Virus record (IMG/VR): IMGVR_UViG_3300024265_000177
Location: 1 to 27,744 of that record
DNA: 27,744 nucleotides
Strand: one strand, 5' to 3'
From: a virus
Numbering within the stretch: the first letter of the stretch is position 1; the number at the start of each line of letters is the position of its first letter. Of this stretch, positions 1 to 17,640 are shown piece by piece. The position numbers were made by a program, and so were the translations under genes. Under the pieces are notes generated by a model. It saw only the letters and a list, made by a program, of their open reading frames with translations. It was not told the DNA's origin and did no database searches.

Positions 1-1292
1 TTAACCTCAGACGAACTGAACCTTCCGGTCATAGCCGTACTCTGATTAAACTTACAGTGTATTGTTCCTATCTCTCTACCAGCAGGTGAGAAATGTACGT
101 CTAGACAGTCGTTGATAAAGTGATCATAGTAAGTAGAGATCATCTTCGAGAGTTGCCTGTACTTTAGAATCAGTGGTGGTAGTAACTCTCGCTTATTCAG
201 CTTATGTTTCCGTACAGTTTTCCTGACAGCTCTATAGAACTTATCTCCTGACCATCCTTCTTCTCCTGAGTCTCGAATGACATCCACTAGCGGATCTGAC
301 ACATAGCGGATCATCGCGTATTCGTCGAAGGCCCAGTTACCTCCCCCTGTCTTACCACCTGTCTTGTGATTCTTCTTTGGTTTCGTCTTATACTTTAATG
401 GGATTCCTAGCTTCTCGAAAGCTGCCGGTAACTGTAAAGCACTACTACCAGGATTAAACTCATCCACAGTCACAGATATCATGTCGCCCTTCTTCTTCTT
501 CTCGAAGGTAAGAGGACATATCAGTTTATCCAAATCAGCTTTGATCCTATCCAAGGTAACTTGGGCTTCAGCCTTTAACTCTCTAGCTCGGGTTATGTCG
601 ATTAACACTCCCGTGCTTTCCATGTCAAGACAGACAAAGAGTAAATGCCGTTCTGTTTCGTAAAGCTCATTACAGATACGGCGAGCTCGAGGATAAAGTA
701 CTCCAAAGATTTCCAATGTAGCTTCAGTATCCCACCTGACTCTGTCCTTGACTAGACTGAGAGGGGCATCTCTGAAGTTTGGAGATCGTCCATGCTCTTT
801 GATAAAGCTTCGCTTGTTAGCTTTTAACCAGTACTCGATCTCATCTTTATCTTCGGTTGTCCAGCCAAGATGTTTCTTGGCCAGGAACCTTAGATTGTGC
901 CTCTTCTCTACTGAGTCCAGTACCTTGGATAGAATCATTGTACAATGGATGTCGGATTTAAGATTGAGAACATCGAGACCTTCGAAGGAGAGCATCTTCA
1001 AATCGAACTTAGCATTCTGAAATACAATATGCTTAGTAGGATCATTCATTAGTCGCTTCAACCAACGAAGGTTCCGAGGATTCTTGAGCATGAAGCCCCA
1101 CTCGCCTTTACTAGTTTTGTAACTCCAACAAAAGATACGAGCTCCAGCGGCGTTTCCAAACTTATCTCTAACGCCATTGGAGTACGGATTTAAACCCGTA
1201 GTCTCGGTATCGATTGCAACTACGTTACCTTCTAGACAAGGTAAGGGCGGGAGCAATCTAGATCGTTTATTCTTAGTACGTTTATTCCGCAT
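1..1292 (-). CDS. Family A DNA polymerase, N-terminal part (cut by window edge)
   Basis: This is the phage replicative DNA polymerase; 430 residues are visible and the reading frame is open to the window edge. A 3'-5' exonuclease domain comes first: AIDTETTG (about residues 26-33) is Exo I, NAKFDLKML (93-101) is Exo II, and RWDTEATLEIF (186-196) occupies the Exo III position, although the usual Tyr four residues before its Asp is Arg. The polymerase domain begins with LKYRQLSKM and reaches FNQSTAMTGRFSSSEV, the stretch just before motif A in T7/Pol I enzymes; the palm and fingers lie beyond the edge. The ATG at 1292 overlaps the end of the deaminase gene by 61 bases and has only a weak AGAAAG upstream, so the start is less certain than the identity. 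Confidence 0.93.
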   Translation of the reverse strand, partial: MRNKRTKNKRSRLLPPLPCLEGNVVAIDTETTGLNPYSNGVRDKFGNAAGARIFCWSYKTSKGEWGFMLKNPRNLRWLKRLMNDPTKHIVFQNAKFDLKMLSFEGLDVLNLKSDIHCTMILSKVLDSVEKRHNLRFLAKKHLGWTTEDKDEIEYWLKANKRSFIKEHGRSPNFRDAPLSLVKDRVRWDTEATLEIFGVLYPRARRICNELYETERHLLFVCLDMESTGVLIDITRARELKAEAQVTLDRIKADLDKLICPLTFEKKKKGDMISVTVDEFNPGSSALQLPAAFEKLGIPLKYKTKPKKNHKTGGKTGGGNWAFDEYAMIRYVSDPLVDVIRDSGEEGWSGDKFYRAVRKTVRKHKLNKRELLPPLILKYRQLSKMISTYYDHFINDCLDVHFSPAGREIGTIHCKFNQSTAMTGRFSSSEV

Positions 1293-1681
1293 GCTTGTAA
1301 TCTTTCTAAACCAGCTTTATTCCGATAGTCCTGATAATAAAAAACCTTGGTGATGTTGCTTTGAGCGATAAGAGTAGCACAGGTTTCACATGGAGCCATT
1401 GTCACGAACATAATCTTGTTAGGTATTCGTCCATCTACCATAGCAATCGCGTTGGCCTCAGCATGCAGGCAACCACAATTACCTTTCTCGTTACGACAAG
1501 CTTCGTTACCAAGTTGCTTAGGTGGACCGTTGTAGCCTGTGGCCAGAGTTACTCTCATATCTTCGGTAGTGATCACACAACCCACAGCTCGATTGTCCTG
1601 CTTACACAAAGCTCGACTGGCCCAATCTAAAGCAAACCGCATATAGATAACTCTACGCTTAGGTCTATTCTCATTAAACAT
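1232..1681 (-). CDS. dCMP deaminase
   Basis: A zinc-dependent deoxycytidylate deaminase that would turn dCMP into dUMP, feeding the thymidylate synthase next door. In the 149-residue protein, CLHAEANAI (catalytic HAE at 73-75) and APCETC (two zinc-binding Cys, 98 and 101) form the cytidine-deaminase active site. GYNGPPKQLGNEAC (about 49-62) matches the loop of phage dCMP deaminases that carries extra Cys residues. An upstream start would add 42 residues lying inside thyX. The ATG at 1681 is preferred because AAGAAGGGAG lies just before it and the family homology starts there. In a phage suspected of using modified dCMP, this enzyme competes for the same substrate. Confidence 0.93.
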   Translation of the reverse strand: MFNENRPKRRVIYMRFALDWASRALCKQDNRAVGCVITTEDMRVTLATGYNGPPKQLGNEACRNEKGNCGCLHAEANAIAMVDGRIPNKIMFVTMAPCETCATLIAQSNITKVFYYQDYRNKAGLERLQACGINVLRINDLDCSRPYLV

Positions 1682-1697
1682 CTCGTATACTCCCTTC

Positions 1698-2702
1698 TTA
1701 AAAGTGATTAGATAACCAGGGAACTTTTTTCTGCATATCAGCCAGTACCTTGTTAGCAACTTCCTGCATTTGAGGATGAGGAGCTGAGGCCGCGTACAGA
1801 AGACCATCCGTCAGTTTGTCCTCTGGTGTTCCAGCAGGAGTACATCTCATCGTAAAGAAATGATCCCAGTGGCGAAGGTTACCAGTGATTACAATTTCGG
1901 TCATAAGACTGTTTGGTAGTACTGACCGTGCTTGCTGTGGAGTCCATCCTTGTTCTAGAAGATGTATATAACCACACTCAGCAATCTGCATATTGAATAG
2001 CCAGTAATCTTCTGGCCCTTCCAAACTACTGATAGCAGCATCATCTGTCTCGCATGAGGCTTCACCTGGCTCGAAGTTTATCCAAGGAGGTATAATAAAG
2101 GTCACGCCACCTTTATAGTTGCAGTACCTTGTACTTACTTGTGCGTAACTGAATGGTCTATGCCGGACGATCTCGTGAGTTACACCACGATCACAGGTAA
2201 TCCGATAAGAGAAGTACTGATGGGCGATCTGCTCTTCCTTAGTTAACTCTCCGGTATAAACATTTGCCATACCATTCCTTCTGTGCAAAGGCAGGTCTTG
2301 AAAACCTGTGAATATAAGAGGAACTACATCGCCACCGACTAACGCTATCGAGTTTCTGATGTGCATATCAACTCCAACATCTGCACAGATATCTCTAAGA
2401 GCTCGTACATTTCCTGAAAGGAGACATCCATGTGCTCCCTGAGTAAGAGAGATGTGATTCCTGTGAGGATCTTGTAACAGGACTAACCTTTCATATAGAA
2501 AGGTACCAATACTTAAAACAAGGTTAGCATGTTCGATCATAGCGTGATGTTTCCTGTTCAACAACATCTGAACGAACTTTGGCGCTGATTCTTCCGTGAT
2601 GTTGTCTTCGCTTTTGTAACAGGTTCGACCTGCTCTTTCAATTACTACCAGCGGATCACCAGTGCAATCGAGTCTTTCAACTTTTGGTTTTAGCAGTTCC
2701 AT
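1698..2702 (-). CDS. thyX: Flavin-dependent thymidylate synthase ThyX
   Basis: Makes dTMP from dUMP using methylene-tetrahydrofolate, FAD and NADPH. The ThyX signature RHR-x7-S is present as RHRPFSYAQVS at residues 180-190. The C-terminal signature QQARSVLPNSLMTEIVITG followed by NLRHWDHFF (about 256-283) matches the substrate- and flavin-binding segment. At 334 residues it is longer than the roughly 220-250 of many bacterial ThyX proteins. The extra length includes a Cys/Asp/Glu-rich insert near 211-235. It lies between the dCMP deaminase and a ThyA-fold protein. The presence of an intact ThyX means the ThyA-fold neighbour is probably not needed for ordinary dTMP synthesis. Confidence 0.96.
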   Translation of the reverse strand: MELLKPKVERLDCTGDPLVVIERAGRTCYKSEDNITEESAPKFVQMLLNRKHHAMIEHANLVLSIGTFLYERLVLLQDPHRNHISLTQGAHGCLLSGNVRALRDICADVGVDMHIRNSIALVGGDVVPLIFTGFQDLPLHRRNGMANVYTGELTKEEQIAHQYFSYRITCDRGVTHEIVRHRPFSYAQVSTRYCNYKGGVTFIIPPWINFEPGEASCETDDAAISSLEGPEDYWLFNMQIAECGYIHLLEQGWTPQQARSVLPNSLMTEIVITGNLRHWDHFFTMRCTPAGTPEDKLTDGLLYAASAPHPQMQEVANKVLADMQKKVPWLSNHF

Positions 2703-2704
2703 TT

Positions 2705-3493
2705 TTAAAATATACCCCTTTCTTTAAGGTCCTTTTGATAGGCGTGGAACGAGCCGGCAAAGTAAGTCAGCATGCCCATCTCCAAGCCAAGTTGATCTGC
2801 GAACCAATCCTGCATTAACGCAGCAAGACAGATATCCACAGCGAAGTGTGTAAGGAAGTCACAGGAGCGCATCGTGTAAATCAGATCGACTCTTCCTTTA
2901 CGAACCATGATCTGATAGTACATACTGCAAGGGATTCGACCTCCACCACCTTTGTTAGCCAGGTCAGCGCTACTGTCAACCTGATTGACTGAACGACCGG
3001 GTACAAAAGTAATCTGACCAGCAGCTTCAGGACAGATATTGCTATGGATATTTAGAATACCCTGACGGGACTCAGGATTATGCCTTAGCTCATCCAGGAT
3101 ATCAAATATCTGCGGAGCCAGTCGTTCACTGTAGGTATAGGCGAACTTACCATCGTGCAGAAACTCATCCCATATATTCTTTCGATTTACATAGGCCAGA
3201 CCTGGATTAGTGGCTGTACCAGAAACTCGATCTCTGAGTTCGGCCAGTACATAGGTCAGAACATCTCCGCCCTTCTCTTTGAAGAAGTATTCCATAACTC
3301 GTTTAGCCATCTCTGCATCCCACTTCCAATTGACAAGCTTGAAAGCGTAGCCCTGCATCTCCTTCGTCAAATAATCGGGATCATTCCGAATGTCCTTGTC
3401 CTGCATTGTTTGGGGATGGACCTCGATGCCCATCTCCATGAGGTCTCGTTCGGTTTCCCGAATCGCCTCATATAAATTAGTATAGATCCTCAT
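2705..3493 (-). CDS. Thymidylate-synthase-fold pyrimidine nucleotide C5-transferase, probably dCMP-specific
   Basis: A 262-residue ThyA-superfamily protein. NIWDEF (106-111) matches the TS segment IWDEW. IPCSMYYQ (187-194) holds the catalytic Cys189. The phosphate-binding Arg-Ser is at 209-210. FHAY (249-252) keeps the His and Tyr that contact the sugar. Aligned on RSCD, the Asn of thymidylate synthase that reads uracil (E. coli Asn177) is Asp220 here (AVDI instead of FNI). In T4 dCMP hydroxymethylase this position is Asp, and Asn-to-Asp in L. casei TS switches preference to dCMP; that is established knowledge. The inference is that it adds a hydroxymethyl or methyl group to dCMP. The sequence cannot tell which. 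Its ATG overlaps the stop of the DUF4326 gene, so translation is coupled. Confidence 0.88.
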   Translation of the reverse strand: MRIYTNLYEAIRETERDLMEMGIEVHPQTMQDKDIRNDPDYLTKEMQGYAFKLVNWKWDAEMAKRVMEYFFKEKGGDVLTYVLAELRDRVSGTATNPGLAYVNRKNIWDEFLHDGKFAYTYSERLAPQIFDILDELRHNPESRQGILNIHSNICPEAAGQITFVPGRSVNQVDSSADLANKGGGGRIPCSMYYQIMVRKGRVDLIYTMRSCDFLTHFAVDICLAALMQDWFADQLGLEMGMLTYFAGSFHAYQKDLKERGIF

Positions 3494-3777
3494 TCTGTTT
3501 TTGCTCCTTTCTCTAAGTACTCTACTATTATATCACCATGACAAGCTTTAGGTTTACACCAACACCCAAGCAAGCATCCCTTTAATTTATGAACCGCCGC
3601 TTTGAAAGCCGGGTCTGACTTAAGTCTTGCATAAAAATATACCCTATACTTCTTGATTGATTCCTCTCGGGAATATCGACTAAGAGGGAAGCGACTTCCA
3701 AATATAGTAGTACGATCAATCTTTACTATTATCGGAGACCTACATCTTTTAAGATGAACTACCTTAGTCTTTTTCAT
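3490..3777 (-). CDS. DUF4326 domain protein
   Basis: A 95-residue protein that matches DUF4326 as I know it. The N-terminal strand VVHLKRCRSPIIVKIDR is followed by IFGSRFPLSRYSREESIKKYRVYF and ends in LKGCLLGCWCKPKACHGDII (about 66-85). The closing Cys-Trp-Cys-Lys-Pro...Cys-His pattern is the hallmark of the family and suggests a metal- or nucleotide-binding pocket. The biochemical role is not known. The gene overlaps both neighbours by four bases (ATGA) and sits between the two thymidylate-synthase-like genes, so it is co-translated with them. A role in nucleotide handling is a guess from position only. Confidence 0.8.
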   Translation of the reverse strand: MKKTKVVHLKRCRSPIIVKIDRTTIFGSRFPLSRYSREESIKKYRVYFYARLKSDPAFKAAVHKLKGCLLGCWCKPKACHGDIIVEYLEKGAKTE

Positions 3778-4565
3778 AGCTCTATATCTTTCAGTGTAAA
3801 AGATTTTGGATAAACACCTTTTGGTTTAAGCTTGCCCCTATAGTAGAACCACTTCTCAATATAACGTTTGGCAGGACCGTACTTAGCTTCATCTAGCATT
3901 TTCATACCAGATTTTGCATAGTGGTATAGGAACCTTCTTCTGTAGACTCCTGCAACTCTTTGCCATGGAAGCGGAGCTCGTTCGAAGGCAGTCTTCGTCT
4001 TTTTGTGCAGGCTCTTCAGCTTAGTCATCAATCGTTTGTTCAGGAAGATGACCTGCATAGATCTCAGATAACTTACCTGGAGGTCTACAACGTACCATCT
4101 GAACTTGATCTTGCTGGGATCACCAATCTTCTCAGCTATCTTGTAGGCCAGGGCGAGATCGAAGAACGACATATAACCGGCGTAACAAGTTCTACTGAGT
4201 AAGGTAAGGGTGTTATTGCAGTAAGTTACACTGAGCAGACAGTTCCCGTACTGATGGTTGAGCCTCTTACCAGCAATCGACTTAAACAACATAGAAGCAC
4301 TACACTGGTTGCCTAACTTCCTGGTCACATTAATAAAAGCTTCTAACCTATCTTGATCAACGTACTGATTCACCAGCCTTGTCCAGCGGGATTTAGAGAA
4401 CCCAGTTTCCTTTCCTAGGTTTACGTTATATTCGCAGGTCTTGGCCCTGAACAGCATATTGAATCTGTGGTAGGCATTGGACTTACCAGTACCTTCGTCA
4501 TCCTCTAACAGAGATGGCAGTAGATTCTTGGCCAGCATAGTTAAGTTTGGATATGATTTATTCAT
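3774..4565 (-). CDS. Divergent thymidylate-synthase-like protein (tentative)
   Basis: No confident family match; 263 residues, pI probably high. The middle resembles the TS core. GNCLLSVTY puts a Cys at 109 where TS has its catalytic Cys. LTLLSRT puts Arg at 125, and FFDLALAY puts Asp at 136, exactly 11 residues after the Arg. That is the spacing between the phosphate-binding Arg and the base-reading Asn/Asp in TS. WYVVDLQVSY (157-166) sits about where TS has GGDTHLY. The Cys-to-Arg distance is 16 rather than 20, so a hairpin would be shorter. The C-terminus is basic and unmatched. The ATG at 4565 overlaps the upstream stop (TAATG) and has GGAG upstream; a TTG eight codons earlier is less likely. 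It lies two genes from the probable dCMP enzyme. Confidence 0.55.
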   Translation of the reverse strand: MNKSYPNLTMLAKNLLPSLLEDDEGTGKSNAYHRFNMLFRAKTCEYNVNLGKETGFSKSRWTRLVNQYVDQDRLEAFINVTRKLGNQCSASMLFKSIAGKRLNHQYGNCLLSVTYCNNTLTLLSRTCYAGYMSFFDLALAYKIAEKIGDPSKIKFRWYVVDLQVSYLRSMQVIFLNKRLMTKLKSLHKKTKTAFERAPLPWQRVAGVYRRRFLYHYAKSGMKMLDEAKYGPAKRYIEKWFYYRGKLKPKGVYPKSFTLKDIEL

Positions 4566-5239
4566 TAGTAGTTCGTCTCCTGTCTCCAAGTATTAACGGT
4601 GTGTTTCCTGGTATACAGCACGTATACATCAGCCAGGGAGAAGCCCATCTCGTTCCACATTATTGCGAAGTCCTTCCAAGCCACAAGAAGCTTCTGTTGG
4701 AACCTGGTCTTGTCCGTAGGCATCTGAGTTTGTTTCCAGGGTTTGTTCTTCAAGGTGTTAGCAGCTAGACCCAGACTAAAGATTACTTCTGCCACAAGTA
4801 ACCTGACATCGAAGTCATCGTTGATATTGAAGAGAACAGGTTCAGCAAAGATATTGGATAGCACATCAGAGATCTCGTTCTCGTTCATCTCTGCTATGAT
4901 TGAAGCTTCGACCAGGAAGTGCAGAGCGTCAGCCAACTCCTCAAAGAAGTGCCTCAGGTCAGCATTGTTTTCCCACCGACCTTTCCAATTAGCAATGGTC
5001 TCATCATTAGGAATAACCTCCATAGCTTCACAGAGTTCCTCAGTAGTGCGCCAGAACATATCCTTGAGAATATACTGAACAGCACTGTCATCAATGTTCC
5101 AAGGAGGATCTGGATATTTAATCCCATTGGCTACTTCGATGGAATGGTACTTTGTCATCAGAGTTCTCTGAAGAGCAAAAATCCTTATGACTGGATCGCC
5201 AGGTATTTCAACTTGATCTGTTACGTCGTCGATATTCAC
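4565..5239 (-). CDS. All-alpha NTP pyrophosphatase, dUTPase-2/dCTPase type
   Basis: A 224-residue helical protein of the dimeric dUTPase/MazG superfamily. These enzymes hydrolyse dUTP or dCTP to the monophosphate plus pyrophosphate. Metal-binding motifs are visible: TEELCEAME (66-74) and FFEELADALHFLVEA (98-112, E100-E101-x2-D104), with NWKGRW between them as in the family. T4 uses a related fold (gp56) to remove dCTP so that only modified cytosine enters its DNA, which would fit this gene's position next to a probable dCMP-modifying enzyme. Whether the substrate here is dUTP, dCTP or both is open. The start is GTG at 5239 with AAAGGAG upstream, overlapping the TSCPD stop (GTGA). Confidence 0.82.
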   Translation of the reverse strand: MNIDDVTDQVEIPGDPVIRIFALQRTLMTKYHSIEVANGIKYPDPPWNIDDSAVQYILKDMFWRTTEELCEAMEVIPNDETIANWKGRWENNADLRHFFEELADALHFLVEASIIAEMNENEISDVLSNIFAEPVLFNINDDFDVRLLVAEVIFSLGLAANTLKNKPWKQTQMPTDKTRFQQKLLVAWKDFAIMWNEMGFSLADVYVLYTRKHTVNTWRQETNY

Positions 5240-5589
5240 TTGATCAACTCCTTTCTTATCTCGATAACTTCATCGATACTTTTAGTAATCCCGTCGACCA
5301 ATGAGCTAGCCTCATCATCTCTAGGATCAAATATAGTTTGCAAGTACTTCTTTCCAAGTACCTCCCAAGGTACACTGTACTGTAGAGCTACACTAATCGT
5401 GATAGCAAGTGCGTCTATCAGTCCAGCTATGGTAGAACCTTCCTTGGCGATCTTAATAAAAATCTCACCTGGGTCAGCCGTGTCCTTAAAGAAGTTCACA
5501 GTAGCGTAATACTCCATGTTAGCTACTTGTCCTTTTTGAGTTATACCTACCCGAGTTTTTTCTAGCTTTCTTCTTTGAGCCGTATGCAT
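5236..5589 (-). CDS. Stand-alone TSCPD domain protein (RNR C-terminal domain-like)
   Basis: A 117-residue protein that matches the C-terminal TSCPD region of B12-dependent (class II) ribonucleotide reductases. RRKLEKTR at 6-13 corresponds to the RRKLPxTR entry motif of that region. PGEIFIKIAKEGSTIAGLID (40-59) and SVALQYSVPWEVL follow as in NrdJ-type proteins. The reductase barrel is missing, and no reductase gene is visible in this window. The homology begins right at the first residues, which supports the ATG at 5589 rather than the internal ATG at 5517. It may regulate or assist a host or phage reductase encoded elsewhere. The string STIAGLIDA is part of the RNR match and has no connection with homing endonucleases. 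Confidence 0.82.
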   Translation of the reverse strand: MHTAQRRKLEKTRVGITQKGQVANMEYYATVNFFKDTADPGEIFIKIAKEGSTIAGLIDALAITISVALQYSVPWEVLGKKYLQTIFDPRDDEASSLVDGITKSIDEVIEIRKELIK

Positions 5590-6026
5590 TTTACACTATC
5601 CACTTTCTTTAATCTTTTTAACTCATCTTTTAGTTTTAACCTTGTTTTAAGATTCTTATTCGAGACAGCTTTCTGTTTTGCTTTTTGATTAGCCCCCTTT
5701 CTTTCGCCAGGACCTAAGATCAAGTTAGCCAGTTTTATGATTACTTCTAGCTCTTTTCGTTTTGTCCGAGAGTAGGGTAGCATTAGAAGAGCAAATTCAA
5801 TAACCCTTTCTTTTCCCTCAATATGTAATTGATAGATAGGCTTTGGTCCAACCTTCTGAATTCGACCATAGCCTAAGACATATCTAATATGATAAAGAAC
5901 CTTAGATCTTTTCTGGCTAATAGATAATCTAGGATTGCAATACTTTGAACCTTTTGCACAAGCATTGCCCTCACCATCAAAGAATCCTGCTATGTAAGCA
6001 GCATCAATTTTGGAAACCTTCTTCAT
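5562..6026 (-). CDS. LAGLIDADG homing endonuclease (free-standing, single motif)
   Basis: A 154-residue protein with one LAGLIDADG-type helix, AAYIAGFFDGEGN at residues 9-21. The final Asp/Glu of that helix would coordinate the catalytic metal. ISQKRSKVLYHIRYVLGYGRI follows the usual beta-strand and spacer order (SQK...LxxIxxxLGxG). One motif implies a homodimer cutting a near-palindromic site. The lysine-rich tail (about 110-140) would add DNA contacts. It is not inside a visible intron or intein. It sits between Nmad1 and the TSCPD gene and overlaps them by 4 and 28 bases, so it is embedded in the operon. This looks like a mobile gene that has invaded the nucleotide cluster. Confidence 0.88.
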   Translation of the reverse strand: MKKVSKIDAAYIAGFFDGEGNACAKGSKYCNPRLSISQKRSKVLYHIRYVLGYGRIQKVGPKPIYQLHIEGKERVIEFALLMLPYSRTKRKELEVIIKLANLILGPGERKGANQKAKQKAVSNKNLKTRLKLKDELKRLKKVDSVKCIRLKEES

Positions 6027-6487
6027 TCTGCAAGCCTTTGTGTTAAAAGATATCCTAGAATACAGTAACCAAGGCTGTCTTTGAGTGTGTCCTGCATCGA
6101 TTCATCTCCGAGATCAATCGCATCATCACCCTTGATGTTTTCTATCCGGCCTACCTTAGAAGTCAAGCGAACAAGAATTCCTAGTTCTTTCCAGACCTCC
6201 AGTGGCTTTACTCCATACGCCTTGTGCTTCTTTAACAGGAACTTGGCAAAGGTCATTCGGTTGAAGCGATGGTCAGTCAGTATTTCACTGGTCACAAATC
6301 CGGCTTGTAAGAAAAGAGTTTCCCAGTCTACCACCTCATTGGCTAACACTCTAAGCCGAGCCACATTGATTATGCTCTGCAGCATCTCCAACCATGATTG
6401 GCTTTTGTGCTTCTCGACCTTTGCCTTCTCGATCTGTTGTATGACCCTGAAAACATCACAAGGTTCTTGCATTAATAGTGCTTCCAT
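6023..6487 (-). CDS. Nmad1 / DUF1599 nucleotide-modification-associated protein
   Basis: A 154-residue protein. Its second half fits DUF1599, named nucleotide modification associated domain 1: FLLKKHKAYG (83-92), GILVRLTSKVGRIENI (103-118), then DESMQDTLKDSLGYCILGYL (128-147), which corresponds to the family's ESxxDTLxDLANYA helix. The acidic residues resemble those of all-alpha NTP pyrophosphatases. The family is found in phages with modified bases, but its reaction is not established as far as I know. The ATG at 6487 has AAGGAG seven bases before it. A longer reading frame reaching 6553 would run into the end of the primase gene and is rejected. It strengthens the case for DNA base modification in this phage. 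Confidence 0.75.
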   Translation of the reverse strand: MEALLMQEPCDVFRVIQQIEKAKVEKHKSQSWLEMLQSIINVARLRVLANEVVDWETLFLQAGFVTSEILTDHRFNRMTFAKFLLKKHKAYGVKPLEVWKELGILVRLTSKVGRIENIKGDDAIDLGDESMQDTLKDSLGYCILGYLLTQRLAE

Positions 6488-6497
6488 TTCGTTCTCC

Positions 6498-9332
6498 TTA
6501 CTGTTTAGATAAAGTTTTCTGTCTCTTACGCAGCTGTTTAGTAAAGCCTGCATTTTTTATGTACCAACCGGTACCTTCGATTCTAGCTAAGCATCTGTGC
6601 TGAACCAACTCTCCTATCAAGGATTTGGCAGTGGCAGGATCTCCCACATAGTCGGCCAGAGTATCAGAGTTAATCCGATGCATCTCTAGCAGACCTGTAA
6701 CTGTTGCCAGCTCGTCAGAGCTCAGCATCTTTATACTATTGTTAACTTCCTTAGGTTCGTTAACCTGGGAGGCAGCAGCTGTTGTCTGACTGAACAAGTT
6801 ATAGGCCATACTTGGTTTGTTATAAAATGATTTTAGAATCTCAGTAGCACAGTTAACATGCTTAGAGGTGATGATCAACTTCTCAAAGGATTTGTCTGTA
6901 CTAAAAACTCTAGCCGCAACTGCTGCACTAACCTTGGCTATTTTAATACGTATATTCTCAGCTTGTACTAATGGAATAACTGGAGAGTAGGTATTGCCAA
7001 ATTCTACTGACTTCTCGATTATCTTTGTGGTAGCCTTATCAGTGAAGGTAATCTGACTTGGAGATCTAGACCAAGCCCACAAGATCAAAGCTTGACAAAG
7101 CTCAGCAGGAAATTTATCTTTATCCTTGGTATCGTATATTGCCGGAGCGTTTATAACTTCACTAGGTACCTCGTTCGAAGCTACAGTCAGAACAGCATCA
7201 AACCTACTGACATCCTCTACTGCTCCAATTAGTTCCTTGACGGCCTCAATTCCAGTATTGTAGGTAGCCATCGATCTTCCACTTCGAGGATTAGCCAACC
7301 ATATTATTCGAGTGTTGGCCTGTGTAGTCTCACGGATGATCTTAACTATCTCTGCTACTCCCTCTGACCTAATCCTGCTAAGACGACCAATCTCTTTTGT
7401 CTCAAGGCTCGAGGCTTCATCTATAACGACGAGACGTCTATGGTTGAGAGGAAGTAATCCCCACGTAATCCTCCAGTTGTTTCCTAACTGTTGTAACCCT
7501 CCTACCAATCCAGCAAAGCTACAATTATCACCCGAGGCAATCTCTCCTAGTTTATAATACTTACTGAGTCTCTCGGTGACATATCCTTTACCACAACGAG
7601 TATCTCCCAAGACTAATACGTCCAGCATACCCCTGTGTACAAACTCCTTGTTAAACCAAAAAGACGGAACTGAGTGGAAGGCCAAATCTATCATCATGTG
7701 CAAGTCAGGACGATCGAGTATCTTGGTTATGTTCCGAGACTGCCAATCAGCTATGCTCTGCATCTTAGCCAGGTAACTTATTTTCTTTGGTCTGAATATG
7801 GTCAGCTTCTTACGAAGCTCAGTACTTAGTTCAAAGGTTTCGATCTCGTCCTGGACAGGCTTAGCTTTATCGAATAGGTAAATAACGTGTTGGTCTTTCG
7901 GAGAGTTGGTCATTGATCCTTCAAAGCGGTAAGCCTTGTTAGCTCGTAAACCATGTCCAATATAGTAAGCAGCTCTTACAACATATTCTTTGGACTCAGA
8001 ATCTAAAGTTGGAATAAGCATGACGTGCTCTACGTTAAAGGTCTTGAGGTAATCGACCTTACCTTTACAATTCTGAGTATTAGTAATCCCAATTCGATTT
8101 AGTAATCTTCTTCTGGTAGTATCGTACGGAGTATCTAACATCCGAAGAACAATAGTGTTATCCAACTCTAGGTCATAATCTCTAAATCCTTTATCACTGT
8201 TCGCGATAGGACAATCATCACAGCTATCACTACAACTAACTCTGAACTTTTTGGGCAATAGATAAGGAGCGTGATCTTTTCCGGTGATCAAAGCTTCGAT
8301 TGAGATTCTCTGTCCAAACCAATCTGCTTTACTTGCTTGATCTAAGGAAACTTCTATAGCTTCATCCTGCGGAGTAATTAACTCGTCAGGATTGTCGACT
8401 AAGGTTTTAGCCTTGGCGGTCCATCTTTCCCAGGCTTCTTTTTTACGCATCATAGGTTTCTTGGTAACATAGTCAGTAGTATCTTTACCATACTTCTTGG
8501 GAACTTCCAGCTGTCGTATACTCTTGGCCAGATTTAGAAGTTGTTTACATACTCTCTTGGCTCCCTCTTTACCTGGCTCATCATTGTCGTAGACAATTAT
8601 TACATCTCTTCCCCTGAACAATTCGTTATACTGACTAGGCCAGGTCTTAGCTCCAGAGGATGAGGTGACTGCGTATAAGCCCATACAGAGCAAAACAAAC
8701 ATGTCCCATTCACCTTCACAGATATAGATAGGTTCGTCCTCAGGAGCTTCCATCAAAACCTTCAGAGGATATAACATTGTAGGACTGCCGTATGATCGTG
8801 GTTCATTCTTGGAGGTGAAGTTGATTACCTTGGCTTTGGCTTTTGGATTGCACATCCGGGCACTGACGCATAATCCGAATTCGTTGTAGACAGGCAGTAT
8901 AATCCTATTACCATTCCAGCCAATCTTATGTTGTATGATTTTAGCTTTGGATAAATGCCTTTTGCGAAGATACCGCATAACGCTAGGAGTCTGATATAAC
9001 TTCCTAACCCATTTGCGTATCTGACTATCAGGAATGATGGGATGAATGAACTTGTGAAAAATAGAGCGGGCGGCTTCTCCATCAGAATACTCTTCGTATG
9101 CTGCTTGAAAAGAAACGATGGAGTTGCCGCCCTGTTCGTCCGATGCACAGAAAGAATACCATGCTCCTGTATCTCTGTTAATGGAAAGACTAGGTATTGT
9201 CTCCTCAACGAATGGGGACTTTACTTTTGTCTCGTCACTCCCAGTAGGCCAAGTAATATCAGGAAAAATTGACCGATAGTACTCTTCAGGACTAACATTC
9301 TTTTTTATGTATCTGACTAACGAAGTAATCAT
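6498..9332 (-). CDS. Primase-helicase: Toprim primase fused to MCM-like AAA+ helicase
   Basis: A 944-residue replication protein. At the N-terminus, KSPFVEETIPSLSINRDTGAWYSF (38-61, given in outline) follows the CHC2 primase zinc domain but has lost most zinc ligands. A Toprim domain follows: CEGEWD (E207) and YDNDEPGKEG (D249, D251). Residues 366-510 resemble an OB-fold region with CSDSCDDCP (367-375) as a possible zinc loop. The AAA+ domain has Walker A GDTRCGKG (576-583), Walker B VVIDE (635-639), sensor-1 WLANPRSGR (678-686) and arginine finger SRFD (709-712). The NPxxGR and SRFD signatures point to MCM rather than to DnaB/T7 gp4. The C-terminus (about 870-930) reads as a winged helix, as in MCM proteins. 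It would prime and unwind DNA at the phage fork. Confidence 0.85.
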   Translation of the reverse strand: MITSLVRYIKKNVSPEEYYRSIFPDITWPTGSDETKVKSPFVEETIPSLSINRDTGAWYSFCASDEQGGNSIVSFQAAYEEYSDGEAARSIFHKFIHPIIPDSQIRKWVRKLYQTPSVMRYLRKRHLSKAKIIQHKIGWNGNRIILPVYNEFGLCVSARMCNPKAKAKVINFTSKNEPRSYGSPTMLYPLKVLMEAPEDEPIYICEGEWDMFVLLCMGLYAVTSSSGAKTWPSQYNELFRGRDVIIVYDNDEPGKEGAKRVCKQLLNLAKSIRQLEVPKKYGKDTTDYVTKKPMMRKKEAWERWTAKAKTLVDNPDELITPQDEAIEVSLDQASKADWFGQRISIEALITGKDHAPYLLPKKFRVSCSDSCDDCPIANSDKGFRDYDLELDNTIVLRMLDTPYDTTRRRLLNRIGITNTQNCKGKVDYLKTFNVEHVMLIPTLDSESKEYVVRAAYYIGHGLRANKAYRFEGSMTNSPKDQHVIYLFDKAKPVQDEIETFELSTELRKKLTIFRPKKISYLAKMQSIADWQSRNITKILDRPDLHMMIDLAFHSVPSFWFNKEFVHRGMLDVLVLGDTRCGKGYVTERLSKYYKLGEIASGDNCSFAGLVGGLQQLGNNWRITWGLLPLNHRRLVVIDEASSLETKEIGRLSRIRSEGVAEIVKIIRETTQANTRIIWLANPRSGRSMATYNTGIEAVKELIGAVEDVSRFDAVLTVASNEVPSEVINAPAIYDTKDKDKFPAELCQALILWAWSRSPSQITFTDKATTKIIEKSVEFGNTYSPVIPLVQAENIRIKIAKVSAAVAARVFSTDKSFEKLIITSKHVNCATEILKSFYNKPSMAYNLFSQTTAAASQVNEPKEVNNSIKMLSSDELATVTGLLEMHRINSDTLADYVGDPATAKSLIGELVQHRCLARIEGTGWYIKNAGFTKQLRKRQKTLSKQ

Positions 9333-9335
9333 AGA

Positions 9336-10592
9336 TTAATCTTCCTCTATTGCCGCCTTGATCGCTTTGAGTAAAGCAGCAGGGTTCTTGAACTTACCAC
9401 TCAGACCTGAGTAGTCGCCGATCTCACAAAGTAGTTTGGCCGAGCTGTCGAAGTCGTCAGGAGCAAAGCTGTATTCCTTTGCCAGCTTGTTGGTCTCCTT
9501 AACTTCAGCAGAACTGAGCTTCTTGCTCTTCAGTTCACAGGGAGGAACTTCCTCTTCCTCTTCACCTTCTTCTTCGGCCTCTTCTTCAGCTTCCTCTTCC
9601 TTGAGGTCGTCGATGTCGATTACCTGCTTGTCACCGTCGTCAAACGTGACGTTAGCATTCTCGTCATCGATCTTTGTGATCTTACCGGCGTAGTCCTTAC
9701 CGTCGATATCAACTAAGCAGCGGTCGCCCTTAGCCCAAGCTTCACCTTCTTCTTCGGCCTCTTCCTCTTCGGCCTCTGCTTCAGGTTCTTCCTCGGTCTC
9801 TTCCTCTTCGGCCTCTGCTTCAGGTTCTTCCTCGGTCTCTTCGGCTTCCTCTTCCTTGAGATCGTCCAAGGCAATTTCCTGCTCGTCGCCATCATCAAAC
9901 TTAACGAGGGCGTCATCGTCGCCTTTGAGCTTCTTGATCTTACCAGGATAATCCTTGCCGTCAATGTCTACGACACAACGATCACCTTTAGCCCAGTCCT
10001 CGCCTTCCTCTTCGGATTCGGCTTCGGTCTCTTCGGCATCAGGTTCAACGCTATCCTCAGTAGCCACGGCATCTTCATCGAGTTCATCCTCGACCTCGTC
10101 AGAATCCAAAGCCTTAATGATGCGGCTGTTCTGCTGCTCAACCATGTCACCATCAGAATTCTTTTTCTTCTTAGTTGCCAGACGTACAACAGCGTAGGTA
10201 GGTCCTTCTACCATCTCTTCCAACGTTGCCAACAGTTTCTTCTTGGTGCTTGGCTCTTCGTAACCGAGGCGAGCTAGGCTGCCTTTGAAGTAGGCCAAAG
10301 CATCTTCGGTATTGAGACCCTGATGGATAAAGATATGACGACCTTTATTGTCGCCCGATACAATAATCCATTCCCAAGAGCACTGCAAACGTCCGCTAGA
10401 CTTAGCGTTGTTGATGTTGGCACCAACTAACTTAGAAGGATAGCTGCCGTCGGGAGTTTCGTCGAAGGTATAAGCGTCGACGCCTTCCCAGGATTCTTCA
10501 AACACAGAATCCAGCTGTTCATTTACTGAGCCCAGCCCGTGCTCATCTTTGGCTTTAGCCTTTTTTGACTTTGCGCTTTTTTTTCTTGCCAT
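9336..10592 (-). CDS. Probable single-stranded DNA-binding protein with two Tudor-like repeats
   Basis: A 418-residue protein. Residues about 38-160 (YTFDETPDGSYPSKLVGANI, then SGRLQCSWEWIIVSG and GRHIFIHQGL) resemble DUF669-like phage ssDNA-binding proteins. Two near-identical modules follow, residues 200-245 and 286-331, each starting WAKGDRC and containing DIDGKDYxGKI and KFDDGD/TFDDGD. They read as small Tudor/SH3-like barrels. Strongly acidic linkers join them, one built from a perfect 39-base tandem repeat. The C-terminus is a short acidic helix ending EED, reminiscent of protein-recruiting SSB tails. The N-terminus is lysine-rich. The ATG at 10592 with AAAGGGG upstream is chosen over a start 15 codons earlier. 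It lies beside the Sak4-like gene; Sak4 recombinases work with a partner SSB. Confidence 0.68.
   Translation of the reverse strand: MARKKSAKSKKAKAKDEHGLGSVNEQLDSVFEESWEGVDAYTFDETPDGSYPSKLVGANINNAKSSGRLQCSWEWIIVSGDNKGRHIFIHQGLNTEDALAYFKGSLARLGYEEPSTKKKLLATLEEMVEGPTYAVVRLATKKKKNSDGDMVEQQNSRIIKALDSDEVEDELDEDAVATEDSVEPDAEETEAESEEEGEDWAKGDRCVVDIDGKDYPGKIKKLKGDDDALVKFDDGDEQEIALDDLKEEEAEETEEEPEAEAEEEETEEEPEAEAEEEEAEEEGEAWAKGDRCLVDIDGKDYAGKITKIDDENANVTFDDGDKQVIDIDDLKEEEAEEEAEEEGEEEEEVPPCELKSKKLSSAEVKETNKLAKEYSFAPDDFDSSAKLLCEIGDYSGLSGKFKNPAALLKAIKAAIEED
9761..9838. repeat. Perfect 39-bp tandem duplication in the acidic linker
   Basis: Two adjacent identical 39-base units, 9761-9799 and 9800-9838, encode two copies of a 13-residue acidic unit containing TEEEPEAEAEEE. 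Being perfect at the DNA level, the copy number is probably recent and may vary between strains. Confidence 0.95.
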
Positions 10593-11397
10593 GTTTCTTG
10601 GCCCCTTTCTTAAAAGTTTCGGCGAAAGCTTCGCCATTCAATAATTCAAAACCATCAACTGGTTTTCTACGACCTGTTCTATCTTTAGCATAGATAGATT
10701 CTAAACACTTAGTACGAATAGTGCGGACTTGTTTACGCTTACCTCCTTCCCGCATAATTTTGAATCCGCAGTAACCAACAATATCACAAACTGGAACTAA
10801 CACTTTACTGGCTGACTTACCTATGTCAGGCATTGTACGTTCAGTCTCCATGACCGAAGTCCTAATAGTCGTAATCCGCTCGTGGCAGATAAGCGCTACT
10901 CCAACGTTAATCTTCAACAACCTTTGCAGAATGGTCCAGATACCTTTCTTATAGGCCTTCCAACCCTTGGCGAAACCTACATCGCCCAGAGCTTCAATAC
11001 CTAATTGATCGCAGGTATACTCCTCGACCATAAGACAGATGTCGTTAACATGGTCTAGACAGACAAGGTCGTAAGCAAGAGTACCGGCTTTAAACTCGGA
11101 CTCTAGTTTCTTTACAATCGCATCTAACTGCTCATAGTTATGAGCTTCTAACCTACGAGCTGATAGGTAACGAGTTCCTCGGTCTGTACTGATAAAGAAA
11201 ACTTGATCAGCCAAACTGTCGATGAACATTGTCTTGCCCACACCTGGAGGACCGTACACCATGATGATATGGTCAAAGATGGTCTGAGCTATTACTGACC
11301 TATCTGTTGGTAAGACAATCTCACTTTTTCTTTTGGCCTTTACCTTTACTGCCTTTTTTGACGACTTTGCCTTTGCCTTTTTTCTTTTTGGTGGCAT
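10555..11397 (-). CDS. Sak4-like RecA-fold recombination ATPase
   Basis: A 280-residue P-loop protein. Walker A is GPPGVGKT (49-56) and Walker B is DLVCLDHVND (110-119). Further downstream, NVGVALICHE is a sensor-like strand, as in the AAA_24/Sak4 family of phage single-strand annealing and recombination proteins. The order FFISTDRGTRYLSARR after Walker A also fits that family. It lies between a PD-(D/E)XK nuclease and a probable SSB, the usual partners. Both ends are lysine-rich: MPPKRKKAKAKSSKK at the start and KKHGKKKKRKVKKG at the end. The ATG at 11397 has GGAGGAT upstream. A start 16 codons earlier is rejected because homology and the ribosome site favour the shorter form. Confidence 0.82.
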   Translation of the reverse strand: MPPKRKKAKAKSSKKAVKVKAKRKSEIVLPTDRSVIAQTIFDHIIMVYGPPGVGKTMFIDSLADQVFFISTDRGTRYLSARRLEAHNYEQLDAIVKKLESEFKAGTLAYDLVCLDHVNDICLMVEEYTCDQLGIEALGDVGFAKGWKAYKKGIWTILQRLLKINVGVALICHERITTIRTSVMETERTMPDIGKSASKVLVPVCDIVGYCGFKIMREGGKRKQVRTIRTKCLESIYAKDRTGRRKPVDGFELLNGEAFAETFKKGAKKHGKKKKRKVKKG

Positions 11398-12440: not shown

Positions 12441-13859
12441 TCATTTGTAAGCTGTCAAATTGAGAATGCGAGAAAGCGAATCTCCCATGTTAATCCTGGC
12501 CGTTATATAGTCAGCCAGGGAGATATTCTGCATGAGAGCTTCTAATATAGTAATATCGATAGAATCTTCTGAGACAAAATCCCAGTAAGTTATACACTCA
12601 AATCCTTCTGAACCTTTCCGACGTATTCTCTTTTCAGATTGCTGACGCGATACCACTCTAGAAGAGTTAGAGAAGTATACTGCCGTATCAGCTACGACTA
12701 ACTCGTTCATTCCAACTCCAGCATCTACCTGTCCAACGAATAGCTTAACAGATTTATCTTCAGCAAATCTTTCACGAGCTTCAATCTTTTGGTCAGGATC
12801 TAATCTACCACTGAATGTGACTGATTTGATACCCAGGTTCTTAGCTTCCGAAGCTATCTTAAAAATCTCAGCAGTATGAGCACACCATATAACAAGCTTC
12901 TCTTTGTTTTTGAAATAGTCTTCTGAGACAAGAAACTCTTTCAGCAAATCTAGCTTAGGAGACTTCATCCAAATAGGTCTATGATTTTCATCGTAGATAA
13001 AACCTGAAGCGATCTGTCTATACTTAATGCACTGCGATATTACCTGATTAAGTTCTATGATGGGTCTACCAGGGATTACCACATCAAAGTCTGACATGAT
13101 CTTTCTATACAGGTGTCGCTGCTGTCCAGACATCCGAACTGATTTAGTCAATCGACGAACAGGAGGAAGGTTAAGTACGTCATCCTCATGAACGTAGAAG
13201 GACATCCTACTAAGTTTACTAGCGATAAGATCCTTGGCGTTATGCTTCAGATACCATCCAGGACCTGATTGGATATAATATCTCTTTTTAAACTTCCACC
13301 AGTTGTTACCGAACGTTCTACCATTATCTACGAATAAGGACTGCGTGTAAACGTCGCCAGGAGTATTTGTGATAGGCGTTCCTGTCATAGCTATTCTATG
13401 AGGGATATGCCTAGTAGCTGCTATCACCTTTTTAGTTCGCTTAGCTTTCCACCTTTTAATAGTATGCGATTCATCAGCGGCAGTAACCTTCCAGAGCATG
13501 CTCCTAATCCAACGGAAGATCCTGGCATTCCTAACCTGTCCGTATGTTATGATCGCCCAGCGTGGATCAAGAGGCAGTTCCTGTCTAGTATTCTGTAGTG
13601 CGAATACCTCACTTCCAGGAACTCCTTCTAGGGCTAACTCTTTCTGCCAAGTAAAGTAATCATCTCTCCTGCAGATTATCAGGGCAGGTAAACGGAATCT
13701 AGCATATCTGGCAACCACTAAGGTCTTACCAGTTCCGCAAGCCATGTACAGACCGACACAACCATTCATCTTTTTTAAGAAGTTAGTAGCCCTTACCTGA
13801 TGAGGCATAAACTTTCTAAACGGATGTACTCTTCTAACCTGTACTTGCTGTACTGTCAT
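12441..13859 (-). CDS. SNF2/superfamily 2 helicase
   Basis: A 472-residue ATP-dependent DNA translocase. In order: a Q-like start MPHQVRATNFL (18-28), motif I MACGTGKT (39-46), motif Ia ALIICRRD, motif II ADESH (128-132), motif III IAMTGTPITNTP (156-167), and a second RecA domain with LVIWCAHT, TFSGRLD, LFVGQVDAGVGMNE (motif V) and SRQQSEKRIRRKG (motif VI with both arginines). It matches the phage SNF2-like helicases found with Sak4 and PD-(D/E)XK genes, so replication fork remodelling or recombination is the likely role. It overlaps the upstream gene by four bases (ATGA). A 52-base A+T-rich gap separates it from the nuclease gene downstream. Confidence 0.92.
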   Translation of the reverse strand: MTVQQVQVRRVHPFRKFMPHQVRATNFLKKMNGCVGLYMACGTGKTLVVARYARFRLPALIICRRDDYFTWQKELALEGVPGSEVFALQNTRQELPLDPRWAIITYGQVRNARIFRWIRSMLWKVTAADESHTIKRWKAKRTKKVIAATRHIPHRIAMTGTPITNTPGDVYTQSLFVDNGRTFGNNWWKFKKRYYIQSGPGWYLKHNAKDLIASKLSRMSFYVHEDDVLNLPPVRRLTKSVRMSGQQRHLYRKIMSDFDVVIPGRPIIELNQVISQCIKYRQIASGFIYDENHRPIWMKSPKLDLLKEFLVSEDYFKNKEKLVIWCAHTAEIFKIASEAKNLGIKSVTFSGRLDPDQKIEARERFAEDKSVKLFVGQVDAGVGMNELVVADTAVYFSNSSRVVSRQQSEKRIRRKGSEGFECITYWDFVSEDSIDITILEALMQNISLADYITARINMGDSLSRILNLTAYK

Positions 13860-14811: not shown

Positions 14812-14976
14812 TTACTTTGTGATATAGTCCATAACAGATATGATAAGTAGTCCTATCACGCTGCCACATATTATTATTGTTAATAGGGCAAGAGCCCCAC
14901 CCATGAGTATATCGCGAGGAGCATCTCTCCAGGCCTTATCTAACTCTTCTCGTCTCTTCCAATAGTCTTCATTCAT
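14812..14976 (-). CDS. Small single-span membrane protein
   Basis: A 54-residue protein. A charged N-terminal part (MNEDYWKRREELDKAW) precedes a long hydrophobic stretch from about residue 24 to 49 (LMGGALALLTIIICGSVIGL and on), then a short basic end. This predicts an N-in, single transmembrane helix. Its ATG overlaps the stop of the SLOG gene as ATGA, which argues that it is a real, translationally coupled gene. Function is unknown. Confidence 0.72.
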   Translation of the reverse strand: MNEDYWKRREELDKAWRDAPRDILMGGALALLTIIICGSVIGLLIISVMDYITK

Positions 14977-15329
14977 ACTAAAATTACTCTCCCTTCTGGA
15001 TAGAATCCTCTAAACTTATAAACGGTATCTTCAGTCCCACCTGTTCGATCGCCGGACACACAGGCTATCAGGACATCAGAATCTTCAGCTATATTTGTGT
15101 TCCTTGAAAATCCAGCGTGCCTACCTATTGACCAGTCTGGTTTATGAACTAGAATAGGTATCTCGTGTTGAGAAGCTATTATCTCAGCAAATCTGTCGCC
15201 ACCTTTAGGACAGCCTCCACTGACAATAGTATCGCCATCTTCATAAACGTCAAAGAAAGCATCCTCAACACGTATTAGGTCTTTAGTAGTATTCCTTCTC
15301 CTAGACCCAACTATACCTATCCTTGTCAT
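14973..15329 (-). CDS. SLOG-superfamily (YspA/DUF2493-like) protein
   Basis: A 118-residue Rossmann-like protein. RIGIVGSRRRN (3-13) is the first strand and loop, DTIVSGGCPKGGDRFAEIIA (33-52) is the glycine-rich ligand loop with Asp-Arg/Ala, and GFSRNTNIAEDSDVLIA (73-89) is the closing helix-strand, all as in YspA/DprA-like SLOG proteins. This fold binds nucleotide-derived ligands. In defence systems SLOG domains sense nucleotide messengers, and in phages their role is little studied. It is followed four bases overlapped by a small membrane protein and preceded by HTH and NADAR genes. No catalytic claim is made. Confidence 0.8.
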   Translation of the reverse strand: MTRIGIVGSRRRNTTKDLIRVEDAFFDVYEDGDTIVSGGCPKGGDRFAEIIASQHEIPILVHKPDWSIGRHAGFSRNTNIAEDSDVLIACVSGDRTGGTEDTVYKFRGFYPEGRVILV

Positions 15330-15799
15330 TCGTCATAATCCTCAAGAACTTTACCTGTAGCATGTTTCCAGTAGTCGTCGATTAACTCGTTAGACAGTCC
15401 TGGCAGACCTACCAATTCTCTGGGGTCATCAGTGTCCCTAGCTATCAGAGCGTTGATAACCTTAATATGCTGGATCTTCTTAGGAGGAGACCACTTATCA
15501 GTAAGCCTATACTTGAGAGGGAATAGCACGAACTTCTCCAAGTGATACCGAACACCTCCGACTGAGTAACCAAACTTAGCTACCAGATCTCTAGTCGTGG
15601 TATCGTAGGTATAAGCTCTAGCTACATCGAAAGAAAAATCGTTGGCTGTAACTTCAAAGGATGCCAGCTTATATTTCTTCATGTAGTTATGGACCGTAGC
15701 TTCAGTTACCTTAAGGAGGAAAGCCATCCTCTTTATTGAATCTGCTTTTCCATGAGCCTTAACAATAGCACTCTTTACATGTATTGATTTTCTTCCCAT
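15326..15799 (-). CDS. Helix-turn-helix protein, function unknown
   Basis: A 157-residue protein. IKRMAFLLKVTEATVHNYMK (about 22-41) reads as a helix-turn-helix. A second possible one is DLVAKFGYSVGGVRYHLEKF (71-90). Together they suggest sequence-specific DNA binding, for example as a phage regulator. No known family is recognised. It overlaps the SLOG gene by four bases and touches the NADAR gene, so the three genes form one translational unit. Confidence 0.65.
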   Translation of the reverse strand: MGRKSIHVKSAIVKAHGKADSIKRMAFLLKVTEATVHNYMKKYKLASFEVTANDFSFDVARAYTYDTTTRDLVAKFGYSVGGVRYHLEKFVLFPLKYRLTDKWSPPKKIQHIKVINALIARDTDDPRELVGLPGLSNELIDDYWKHATGKVLEDYDE

Positions 15800-16245
15800 T
15801 ATAACGTTCTCCTAACTCTCATTAAAATTCTGCCCAGCATATTGTGGGCTTGTACATCTTTACATTTAGGACAAGTACATCTGCCCCAATAGTTATCGTG
15901 CCAATAATTACCTTCGATTAAGATCGCGTTCCCTGTCGCCTTAAGTTCCTTGGCCAGATGTGAATTCTGTTTGAACTTAGCCATAACAACTAAGAGCATG
16001 ATCATATCCTTGACCTCCTCCCAGTCAGGGCGTAGATCCACCTCTTGTCCTATCCTCTTAGCTTTGTCAGGGAATGGCGTCTTCCTTATCTGATACTTAT
16101 CGCTAGGGTTGTCTGTCTTAAGCGCCTGGTACAGATGCTCAGCTGTGCGATAGTATTCTCCTTGATGGAAGATACCACTCTCTGCAAAATTACTGAGAAA
16201 CCTATAGTGATTCTTGAAGATAGTTATTTTCTTATACTTCCCCAT
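15799..16245 (-). CDS. NADAR family protein (YbiA/RibX-like N-glycosidase)
   Basis: A 148-residue protein with the NADAR/YbiA layout. FLSNFAESG (16-24) is followed by YYRTAEHLYQALKT (31-44), then NAILIEGNYWHDNYWGRC (about 106-123), CPKCKD and HNMLGRILMRVR near the end. Members of this family cleave N-glycosidic bonds in riboflavin intermediates. Others remove ADP-ribose from guanine, including in DNA. A phage copy could undo host ADP-ribosylation or handle NAD-derived molecules, but the sequence alone does not decide. The CTCPKC pair of Cys after the WGRC motif is common in this family. Confidence 0.88.
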   Translation of the reverse strand: MGKYKKITIFKNHYRFLSNFAESGIFHQGEYYRTAEHLYQALKTDNPSDKYQIRKTPFPDKAKRIGQEVDLRPDWEEVKDMIMLLVVMAKFKQNSHLAKELKATGNAILIEGNYWHDNYWGRCTCPKCKDVQAHNMLGRILMRVRRTL

Positions 16246-16633
16246 TATTGAACCACCCTATAGCTTCGTTTTCAGTCATAACACTCATTATCCCAGTTGA
16301 GCCATCGAACCACACTCCAACTTTGCACTTGTCGGCCAGATAGCCCATCGCATCTAAGACGGTCTCAGTAGGAACTTCGTCAGGATCAAGCTTCTCAGTA
16401 CAGCTTCCAGCGATAGCTATAAAAGCTTCGTGATCAATCCGGTCAGGAGGCAGCACTGATAACGCAAGGTGGTATAACACATAGCCAGGATTGGTAGGGC
16501 TTATATCTACAACACCACCTGCGAATAGATCCAGCCCGTCGAGTCCTTTCTTAGGTAGTCTAAGTAACGCTTGTTTTGGACAGACAGCAGCTATACCTGC
16601 CAATTTTAATAATTCTCTTCTATTCATTAACAT
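16232..16633 (-). CDS. Unknown protein with a twin-arginine-like leader
   Basis: A 133-residue protein of no recognised family. It begins MLMNRRELLKLAGIAAVCPK. The RRELLKLAG element, basic then hydrophobic, closely resembles bacterial Tat signal peptides (RRxFLK), though the hydrophobic part is short and no clear AxA cleavage site follows. The rest is mixed alpha/beta with several Asp/Glu, for example DPDEVPTETVLDAMGYLADK. AAGGAG eight bases before the ATG at 16633 supports that start. The gene overlaps both neighbours. A cytoplasmic protein whose N-terminus merely mimics a Tat leader is equally possible. Confidence 0.62.
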   Translation of the reverse strand: MLMNRRELLKLAGIAAVCPKQALLRLPKKGLDGLDLFAGGVVDISPTNPGYVLYHLALSVLPPDRIDHEAFIAIAGSCTEKLDPDEVPTETVLDAMGYLADKCKVGVWFDGSTGIMSVMTENEAIGWFNNGEV

Positions 16634-17362: not shown

Positions 17363-17378
17363 TGCCTTACTCTTTTCA

Positions 17379-17627: not shown

Positions 17628-17640
17628 TTTATAACTCCTT

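Follow-up and report, generated by a model that had tools for sequence, protein, structure and literature searches.

The gene at positions 2705-3493 of the DNA analysed here (the window, a 27,744-nt stretch that is a 27.7-kb virus record obtained via IMG/VR and probably a fragment) is predicted to encode a member of the thymidylate synthase (TS) superfamily that is directed to dCMP, uses methylene-tetrahydrofolate and carries out the first step of a cytosine-modification pathway of two enzymes, a reading that residue conservation and structure prediction make fairly probable. In its family, Arg186 and Tyr119 stand at positions that are decisive in T4 dCMP hydroxymethylase (dCH), the TS features are missing and the folate-binding Asp212 is invariant. 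The family thus appears to be dCMP-directed and of folate type while carrying the signature of neither TS nor hydroxymethylase, and it is therefore called by a separate name, the R-class.

The R-class protein and its probable substrate

The open reading frame that a sequence-only reading of this DNA had assigned to the gene is real and is read from the minus strand; several stops interrupt the plus strand, and the frame overlaps or abuts its neighbours like the genes of a phage operon. Cys189, Arg209 and Asp220 are also where that reading had placed them (RSCDFLTHFAVD), with the aspartate at Arg+11.

2705..3493, minus strand: R-class ThyA-fold enzyme, predicted to be dCMP-directed, 262 aa (assigned by Pfam PF00303, family conservation, AF2 and Foldseek)
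2834-2836: its D220 codon
2867-2869: its R209 codon
2927-2929: its C189 codon
2936-2938: its R186 codon
3137-3139: its Y119 codon

The protein matches Pfam Thymidylat_synt (PF00303, E=2.2e-12) and PHROG 160 (thymidylate synthases, E=5.5e-25). It falls under every NCBIfam thymidylate synthase equivalog cut-off (43.4 bits at best vs a cut-off of 174.55), and its top NCBIfam match, TIGR03283 (short methanogen thymidylate synthases), is far under cut-off. An AF2 model made from 70 family sequences (pLDDT 93.2, pTM 0.90), with rows from database records left out of the AF2 input alignments, predicts a TS-superfamily fold with high confidence. Foldseek comparison of this model with the PDB gave the CMP hydroxymethylase MilA (5b6d, 5jnh) as the best match, with AfhB, a phage dCMP hydroxylase (TMt 0.75-0.76), and many TS also among the matches. 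Side-chain positions discussed here are taken from alignment and not from model coordinates.

A profile-guided scan of viral contigs recovered 534 relatives, 80 of which were kept, and the family alignment comprises 92 members; three further relatives from a search of a genome collection are all in metagenome-assembled archaeal or bacterial genomes. D220, C189, R209, S210, D212, Y121, R143, R186 and H250 are kept in 92/92 members, D212 being the equivalent of the folate-binding aspartate (T4 D171, E. coli D169), and E85 is kept in 84/92, with His in its place in four distant members. The catalytic set of T4 dCH (Cys, Glu60, Tyr96, Asp171, His216/Tyr218) is accordingly matched in the window protein by C189, E85, Y121, D212, H250 and Y252. 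E. coli ThyA shares the fold, Cys146, Arg166, Asp169, Tyr94 and His207/Tyr209 with the R-class but differs from it at Asn177 (Asp in the R-class) and Leu143 (Arg) and in having a C-terminal lid.

The Arg+11 spacing of the aspartate is the same in T4 gp42 (RSNDVVFGFRND), whereas E. coli ThyA reads RSCDVFLGLPFN, and alignment with both proteins places D220, with no gap, opposite T4 D179 and E. coli N177. This bears out the earlier statement that the T4 enzyme has Asp here; the other precedent then invoked, an Asn-to-Asp L. casei TS that prefers dCMP, has a counterpart in PDB 1njc, the structure of L. casei TS N229D with dCMP. Five dUMP hydroxymethylases used as controls, from SPO1, M6, PaMx11, ViI and W-14, have Asn at the D220-equivalent site. 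We take these phages to have hydroxymethyluracil-derived DNA; for SPO1 such DNA is also mentioned in PMC6400193. The pattern of the SPO1, M6, ViI and W-14 type, a base-site Asn with Asp at Cys-3, is replaced in the window protein by Asp220 and Arg186, so that a dUMP hydroxymethylase is ruled out by both residues, and a plain TS with a chance Asp is ruled out by the presence of that Asp in the whole family.

Published work points the same way. The cytosine-type enzymes MilA, BcmA and T4 dCH have Asp and the uracil enzymes Asn (PMC5175136), and Yang et al. 2021 (PMC8670742) report that Asp177 TS homologues are enriched on metagenome contigs with modified cytosine. The cytosine-selecting role of Asp at position 177 is thus, in essence, already published. 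Because D220 is family-wide, against Asn in the controls, and because Asp has been read as cytosine-selecting in print, the case for dCMP is good: the R-class family very probably acts on dCMP and not dUMP, as the sequence-only reading had proposed, a proposal with which 1njc also agrees. MilA shares the cytosine-selecting aspartate (its Asp186) but has Lys133 and Ala176 for ribose where the R-class has the deoxyribose-type Arg143 and Ser210. The homologues found by MetaGPA (PMC8670742) resemble the R-class in their viral metagenome origin, in Asp177 and in a non-His residue at position 147 (here Ser190); the passages of that study considered here describe neither an Arg at Cys-3 nor a ThyA-fold partner, and the second enzyme that it validated is a carbamoyltransferase.

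The site around Arg186 and the likely product

T4 gp42 (PDB 1B5E, 6A9A) has in common with the R-class the fold, the Cys, Arg168/Ser169, Asp171, Asp179, Tyr96, Glu60, His216/Tyr218 and the absence of the TS lid. It differs at Asp145 (Arg186 in the R-class), Ser94 (Tyr119), Gly175 (His216) and Arg124 (Gln144), and only the R-class is accompanied by a ThyA-fold paralogue. The first two differences concern the chemistry itself: in T4 dCH, Asp145 at Cys-3 holds the water that becomes the hydroxyl and also positions Ser94, the D145N mutant is inactive, and D/E at Cys-3 together with S/T-x-Y (S/T two before Tyr) has been proposed as the hydroxymethylase signature (PMC6400193). Neither part is found in the R-class, in which Arg186 occupies the Asp145 place in 92/92 members and Tyr119, lying before Tyr121, the Ser94 place (88 Y, 4 H), whereas 55/55 distinct gp42-like sequences have Asp and Ser at these places. 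The reading as a straight T4-type hydroxymethylase was not adopted because these two signature residues fail.

Judged by these residues, the earlier claim that the product is 5-hydroxymethyl- or 5-methyl-dCMP goes too far. For the hydroxymethyl compound, the enzyme would have to activate water by Tyr119, Arg186 or a displaced acid to serve as a functional dCMP hydroxymethylase like T4 gp42. This is a possible but not a probable reading. Almost every substrate residue of T4 dCH is present, the lid is absent as in that enzyme, a CMP hydroxymethylase is the best fold match, and DNA with 5hmC derivatives is the known outcome for phages with Asp177 homologues (PMC8670742); however, the invariant Arg and the Tyr or His stand at the very positions of Asp145 and Ser94, and in T4 dCH even D145N is dead.

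For the methyl compound, the TS features are missing: Arg186 replaces Leu143, Asp220 replaces Asn177, and the protein stops 10 residues past the equivalent of E. coli Tyr209, so that the C-terminal lid of ThyA is lacking. With neither lid nor Leu143, 5-methyl-dCMP by TS-type hydride transfer is unlikely. A 5-methyl product with the hydride taken from folate or another donor, for which the conversion of canonical TS into a dCMP methylase by Asn-to-Asp (Liu and Santi 1992, as cited in PMC8670742) is a precedent, is quite improbable given these two losses and the Phe at the Trp83 position of TS.

A flavin-dependent dCMP hydroxylase like AfhB of phage HY126 (PDB 9iqu, 9iqc; the entry titles name a riboflavin-dependent monooxygenase with FAD) would be a third alternative. 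The AfhB chains are the closest match in a sequence-profile search of the PDB with the R-class family (E 2.8e-19), AfhB is a top fold match as well, and both proteins have a short ThyA fold with Asp at Arg+11. Yet AfhB reads RSQN, with Asn for the folate-binding Asp169, where the R-class family has an invariant RSxD, and the invariance of D212 points to folate rather than flavin chemistry, which leaves little room for an AfhB-like activity. A literature search found no paper on HY126 AfhB.

Alternatively, the exocyclic methylene might be trapped by a nucleophile other than water, such as an amine, a thiol or a carboxylate bound by Arg186, to give a 5-(X-methyl)-dCMP. The Arg186/Tyr119 shell, which is invariant in the family and lies by alignment at the substrate-water site of T4 dCH, would suit such a reaction, but none of the cassette genes could be recognised as making a nucleophile of this kind, and we consider this outcome unlikely.

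The gene cassette and the second ThyA-fold paralogue

The genes that flank the R-class gene are as follows.

3..1292, minus strand: next cassette gene, an open reading frame truncated where the contig stops, homologous to the polymerase gene found after the deaminase in annotated relatives
1232..1681, minus strand: dCMP deaminase, intact (Pfam E 2e-18, phrog_174 E 6.9e-36; HAE and PCxxC zinc motifs; start picked by homologue length)
1698..2702, minus strand: ThyX, FAD-dependent thymidylate synthase, 334 aa with an internal insertion (Pfam Thy1 E 1.3e-39)
3490..3777, minus strand: DUF4326 protein, between partner and ThyA-like gene (PF14216 E 7.8e-19)
3774..4565, minus strand: partner, a diverged ThyA-fold paralogue, phrog_13667 (function unknown), with C109, R125 and D136 (= R+11) as core residues
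4565..5239, minus strand: all-alpha NTP pyrophosphatase (dUTPase_2, PF08761 E 5.1e-10)
5236..5589, minus strand: TSCPD-domain protein of the cassette (PF12637 E 2.6e-7)

With local variations, phages of Gordonia, Mycobacterium, Streptomyces, Pseudomonas and other hosts share a gene order of dNMP kinase, NTP pyrophosphatase, partner, ThyA, dCMP deaminase and PolA. The truncated frame at 3..1292 is 95.8% identical to its equivalent in G001, and relatives annotate DNA polymerase I there. ThyX was taken to be intact in the sequence-only reading, and indeed it passes NCBIfam TIGR02170 thyX (105 bits, cut-off 87.9) and keeps the RHRxxSx4SxR motif (RHRPFSYAQVSTR), so that thymidylate is covered. A dNMP kinase could not be recognised in the window or in the relatives G001 and G002, and several relatives lack ThyX; the host may supply these activities where they are missing. 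T4 gp56 dCTPase matches the same Pfam model as the window pyrophosphatase (E 2e-5), and the T4 genome and the window thus have a dCTPase-type gene in common. PF00383 and PF01503, with which the MetaGPA homologues co-occur (PMC8670742), are both present in the window.

Other genes of the region vary. The DUF4326 gene is inconstant in relatives, where a UDG-superfamily frame (GEAPG motif) replaces or accompanies it between the partner and the ThyA-like gene (G002 50424-51008, G003 3058-3612, G004 12723-13304, and at the further loci L002 7237-7794 and L004 7419-7997). Within the nucleotide-metabolism operon, the window has a LAGLIDADG/HNH-type homing endonuclease-like frame (5562-6026, minus strand). 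A 944-aa protein (6498-9332, minus strand) joins a Toprim primase-like part to an MCM-type P-loop helicase part, which are two frames in G001. A NADAR-domain protein (15799-16245, minus strand) and a YspA-like SLOG protein (14973-15329, minus strand) belong to protein types that are frequently linked with nucleotide-based phage-host conflict.

That PHROG 13667 is a ThyA-fold paralogue is new here and was missed by the earlier reading. In partner alignments of 84-95 rows, the Cys and the Asp at Arg+11 occur without exception (95/95) and the Arg in 91/95; these three residues form the core of a TS active site of the cytosine type. Profile comparison of the partner with the ThyA family was not significant from a small alignment and became so once the alignments were deeper (hhalign E 1.1e-5, with reversed or shuffled controls at 0.15-0.5; 7.7e-5 in a second comparison). 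The leading PDB matches of the partner's AF2 model (pLDDT 88.4) are all of the TS superfamily, with AfhB first (Foldseek E 7.3e-6; TM-scores about 0.4-0.58), and the partner profile had no match in the PDB by sequence. The partner is without the sugar-binding His207/Tyr209, the folate Asp169 (variable residues stand instead) and the arginines that one TS subunit contributes to the site of the other, and the loss of the His/Tyr and folate Asp suggests that it may be non-catalytic. From these alignments and the model, it appears to be a paralogue of ThyA fold that either does another job or plays a supporting part. Cultured isolates also have the gene (Muddy gp47, KimJongPhill gp77, GTE2 orf39).

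Some phages have two paralogues of the partner kind (G003 6887-7735, G004 10499-11359, L074, L133, L232 4882-5391), and Pseudomonas phage Almagne has an extra short one. Separately, several proteins of one genome that are otherwise unrelated share a module of about 40 residues ending in LRKLGHxGG. This module, which in G003 and G004 even lies within the second ThyA-fold paralogue, is possibly a shared nucleic-acid-binding or packaging tag. Frames with this module are at the following positions.

Window: 18196-18636, minus strand
G001: 16287-17858, 48637-49041, 49031-50305, 50587-51558
G002: 26066-28351, 45658-46407
G003: 9442-10221, 29289-32504, 6887-7735
G004: 6331-7176, 10499-11359

The partner lies within 4 kb in 51/80 IMG/VR R-class loci, a C5-methyltransferase homologue in 17/80 and neither in 12/80, and the two are never together (0/80, Fisher p 5e-10). 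The 17 methyltransferase loci were counted with a C5-specific profile and include L077, which has ordinary ENV motifs and a downstream position; a count of 19 from a neighbour cluster was discarded because a fusion had led single linkage to draw in N4/N6-methyltransferases. Of the 17 rows, 13 belong to one clade, and kinship explains part of the exclusion, but on the ThyA tree the two states need at least 3 changes, so that the exclusion reaches beyond one lineage. Most of the methyltransferase homologues have HPxCG for PPCQ and DNLPK for ENV. Such non-canonical motifs IV and VI are seen beside the ThyA-like gene at L078, L084, L085, L097, L108, L112, L113, L115, L119, L120, L128, L135 and L143.

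In phage records, the partner is near the R-class gene in 9/9 (Almagne, Polewnik, GTE2, LS06-2018-MD02, Muddy, KimJongPhill, MW202455, MW202777, DP SC_6) and was not found in phage G or nattely, which have Asp at Cys-3, or in RHph_I1_6, which is of TS type. The partner profile found nothing in 31 records of gp42, dUMP-hydroxymethylase/hydroxymethyluracil or TS type (0/31), a uniformly empty search that shows little alone, and the same profile gave one weak match in a search of the whole contigs of 25 partner-less records.

These distributions also bear on whether the two proteins form an obligate heterodimer in which each completes the active site of the other. In TS, the active site includes arginines supplied by the opposite subunit, and the partner lacks those arginines while keeping the Cys, Arg and Asp. 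Against this, an unrelated fold takes the place of the partner in 17 loci and 12 have neither, and an obligate heterodimer seems a poor prospect.

A proposed pathway and its meaning

We therefore return to our preferred reading, that of a dCMP-directed, folate-using first enzyme in a two-enzyme pathway. Cys189 would attack C6 of dCMP, Asp220 would read N3/N4 of cytosine, and Glu85 and Asp212 would position and activate CH2-THF, so that a C5 exocyclic methylene forms. This methylene would then be quenched at the site rebuilt around Arg186/Tyr119, and not by Asp-activated water as in T4 or by a folate hydride as in TS. The 5-substituted dCMP would be phosphorylated and built into phage DNA, after which the second protein of ThyA fold, replaced by the C5-methyltransferase homologue in other phages, would act on the cytosine or on its new substituent. 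ThyX and dCMP deaminase would serve thymidylate, and the NTP pyrophosphatase would remove dCTP.

More speculatively, the pathway might modify cytosine through two covalent Cys-C6 reactions, one after the other. First, the R-class ThyA would add a one-carbon group to dCMP; then phrog_13667, or elsewhere the divergent C5-methyltransferase with altered Cys/ENV motifs, would re-open the position and exchange or extend the substituent, giving a cytosine derivative that has yet to be described. Because a Cys activates C6 of cytosine in both, this second job could be shared by two unrelated folds. We offer this idea tentatively, as one that is rather doubtful. A C5-methyltransferase homologue is used for cytosine hypermodification, as the partner-replacing homologue may be, in CmoX, a phage DNA cytosine C5-carboxymethyltransferase (PMC12783734); CmoX carries an SPPC motif and acts together with CmoA, whereas the partner-replacing homologues mostly have HPxCG and DNLPK and lie beside an R-class ThyA gene.

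A literature search found no paper on the DNA chemistry of GTE2 or Muddy, and to our knowledge no activity or DNA chemistry is known for any R-class member. From their gene content, R-class phages probably carry modified cytosine. This gene, annotated as thymidylate synthase, is present in hundreds of viral loci (one scan recovered 534) and in cultured phages, Muddy and GTE2 among them, and R-class genes occur in easily grown phages. If the reading is true, many such phages would have modified cytosine for which we found no measurement in the literature, produced by an enzyme class with the signature of neither TS nor hydroxymethylase and by a second enzyme that has no functional annotation. 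It would then bear on how R-class phages escape restriction, and could give new cytosine-labelling enzymes.
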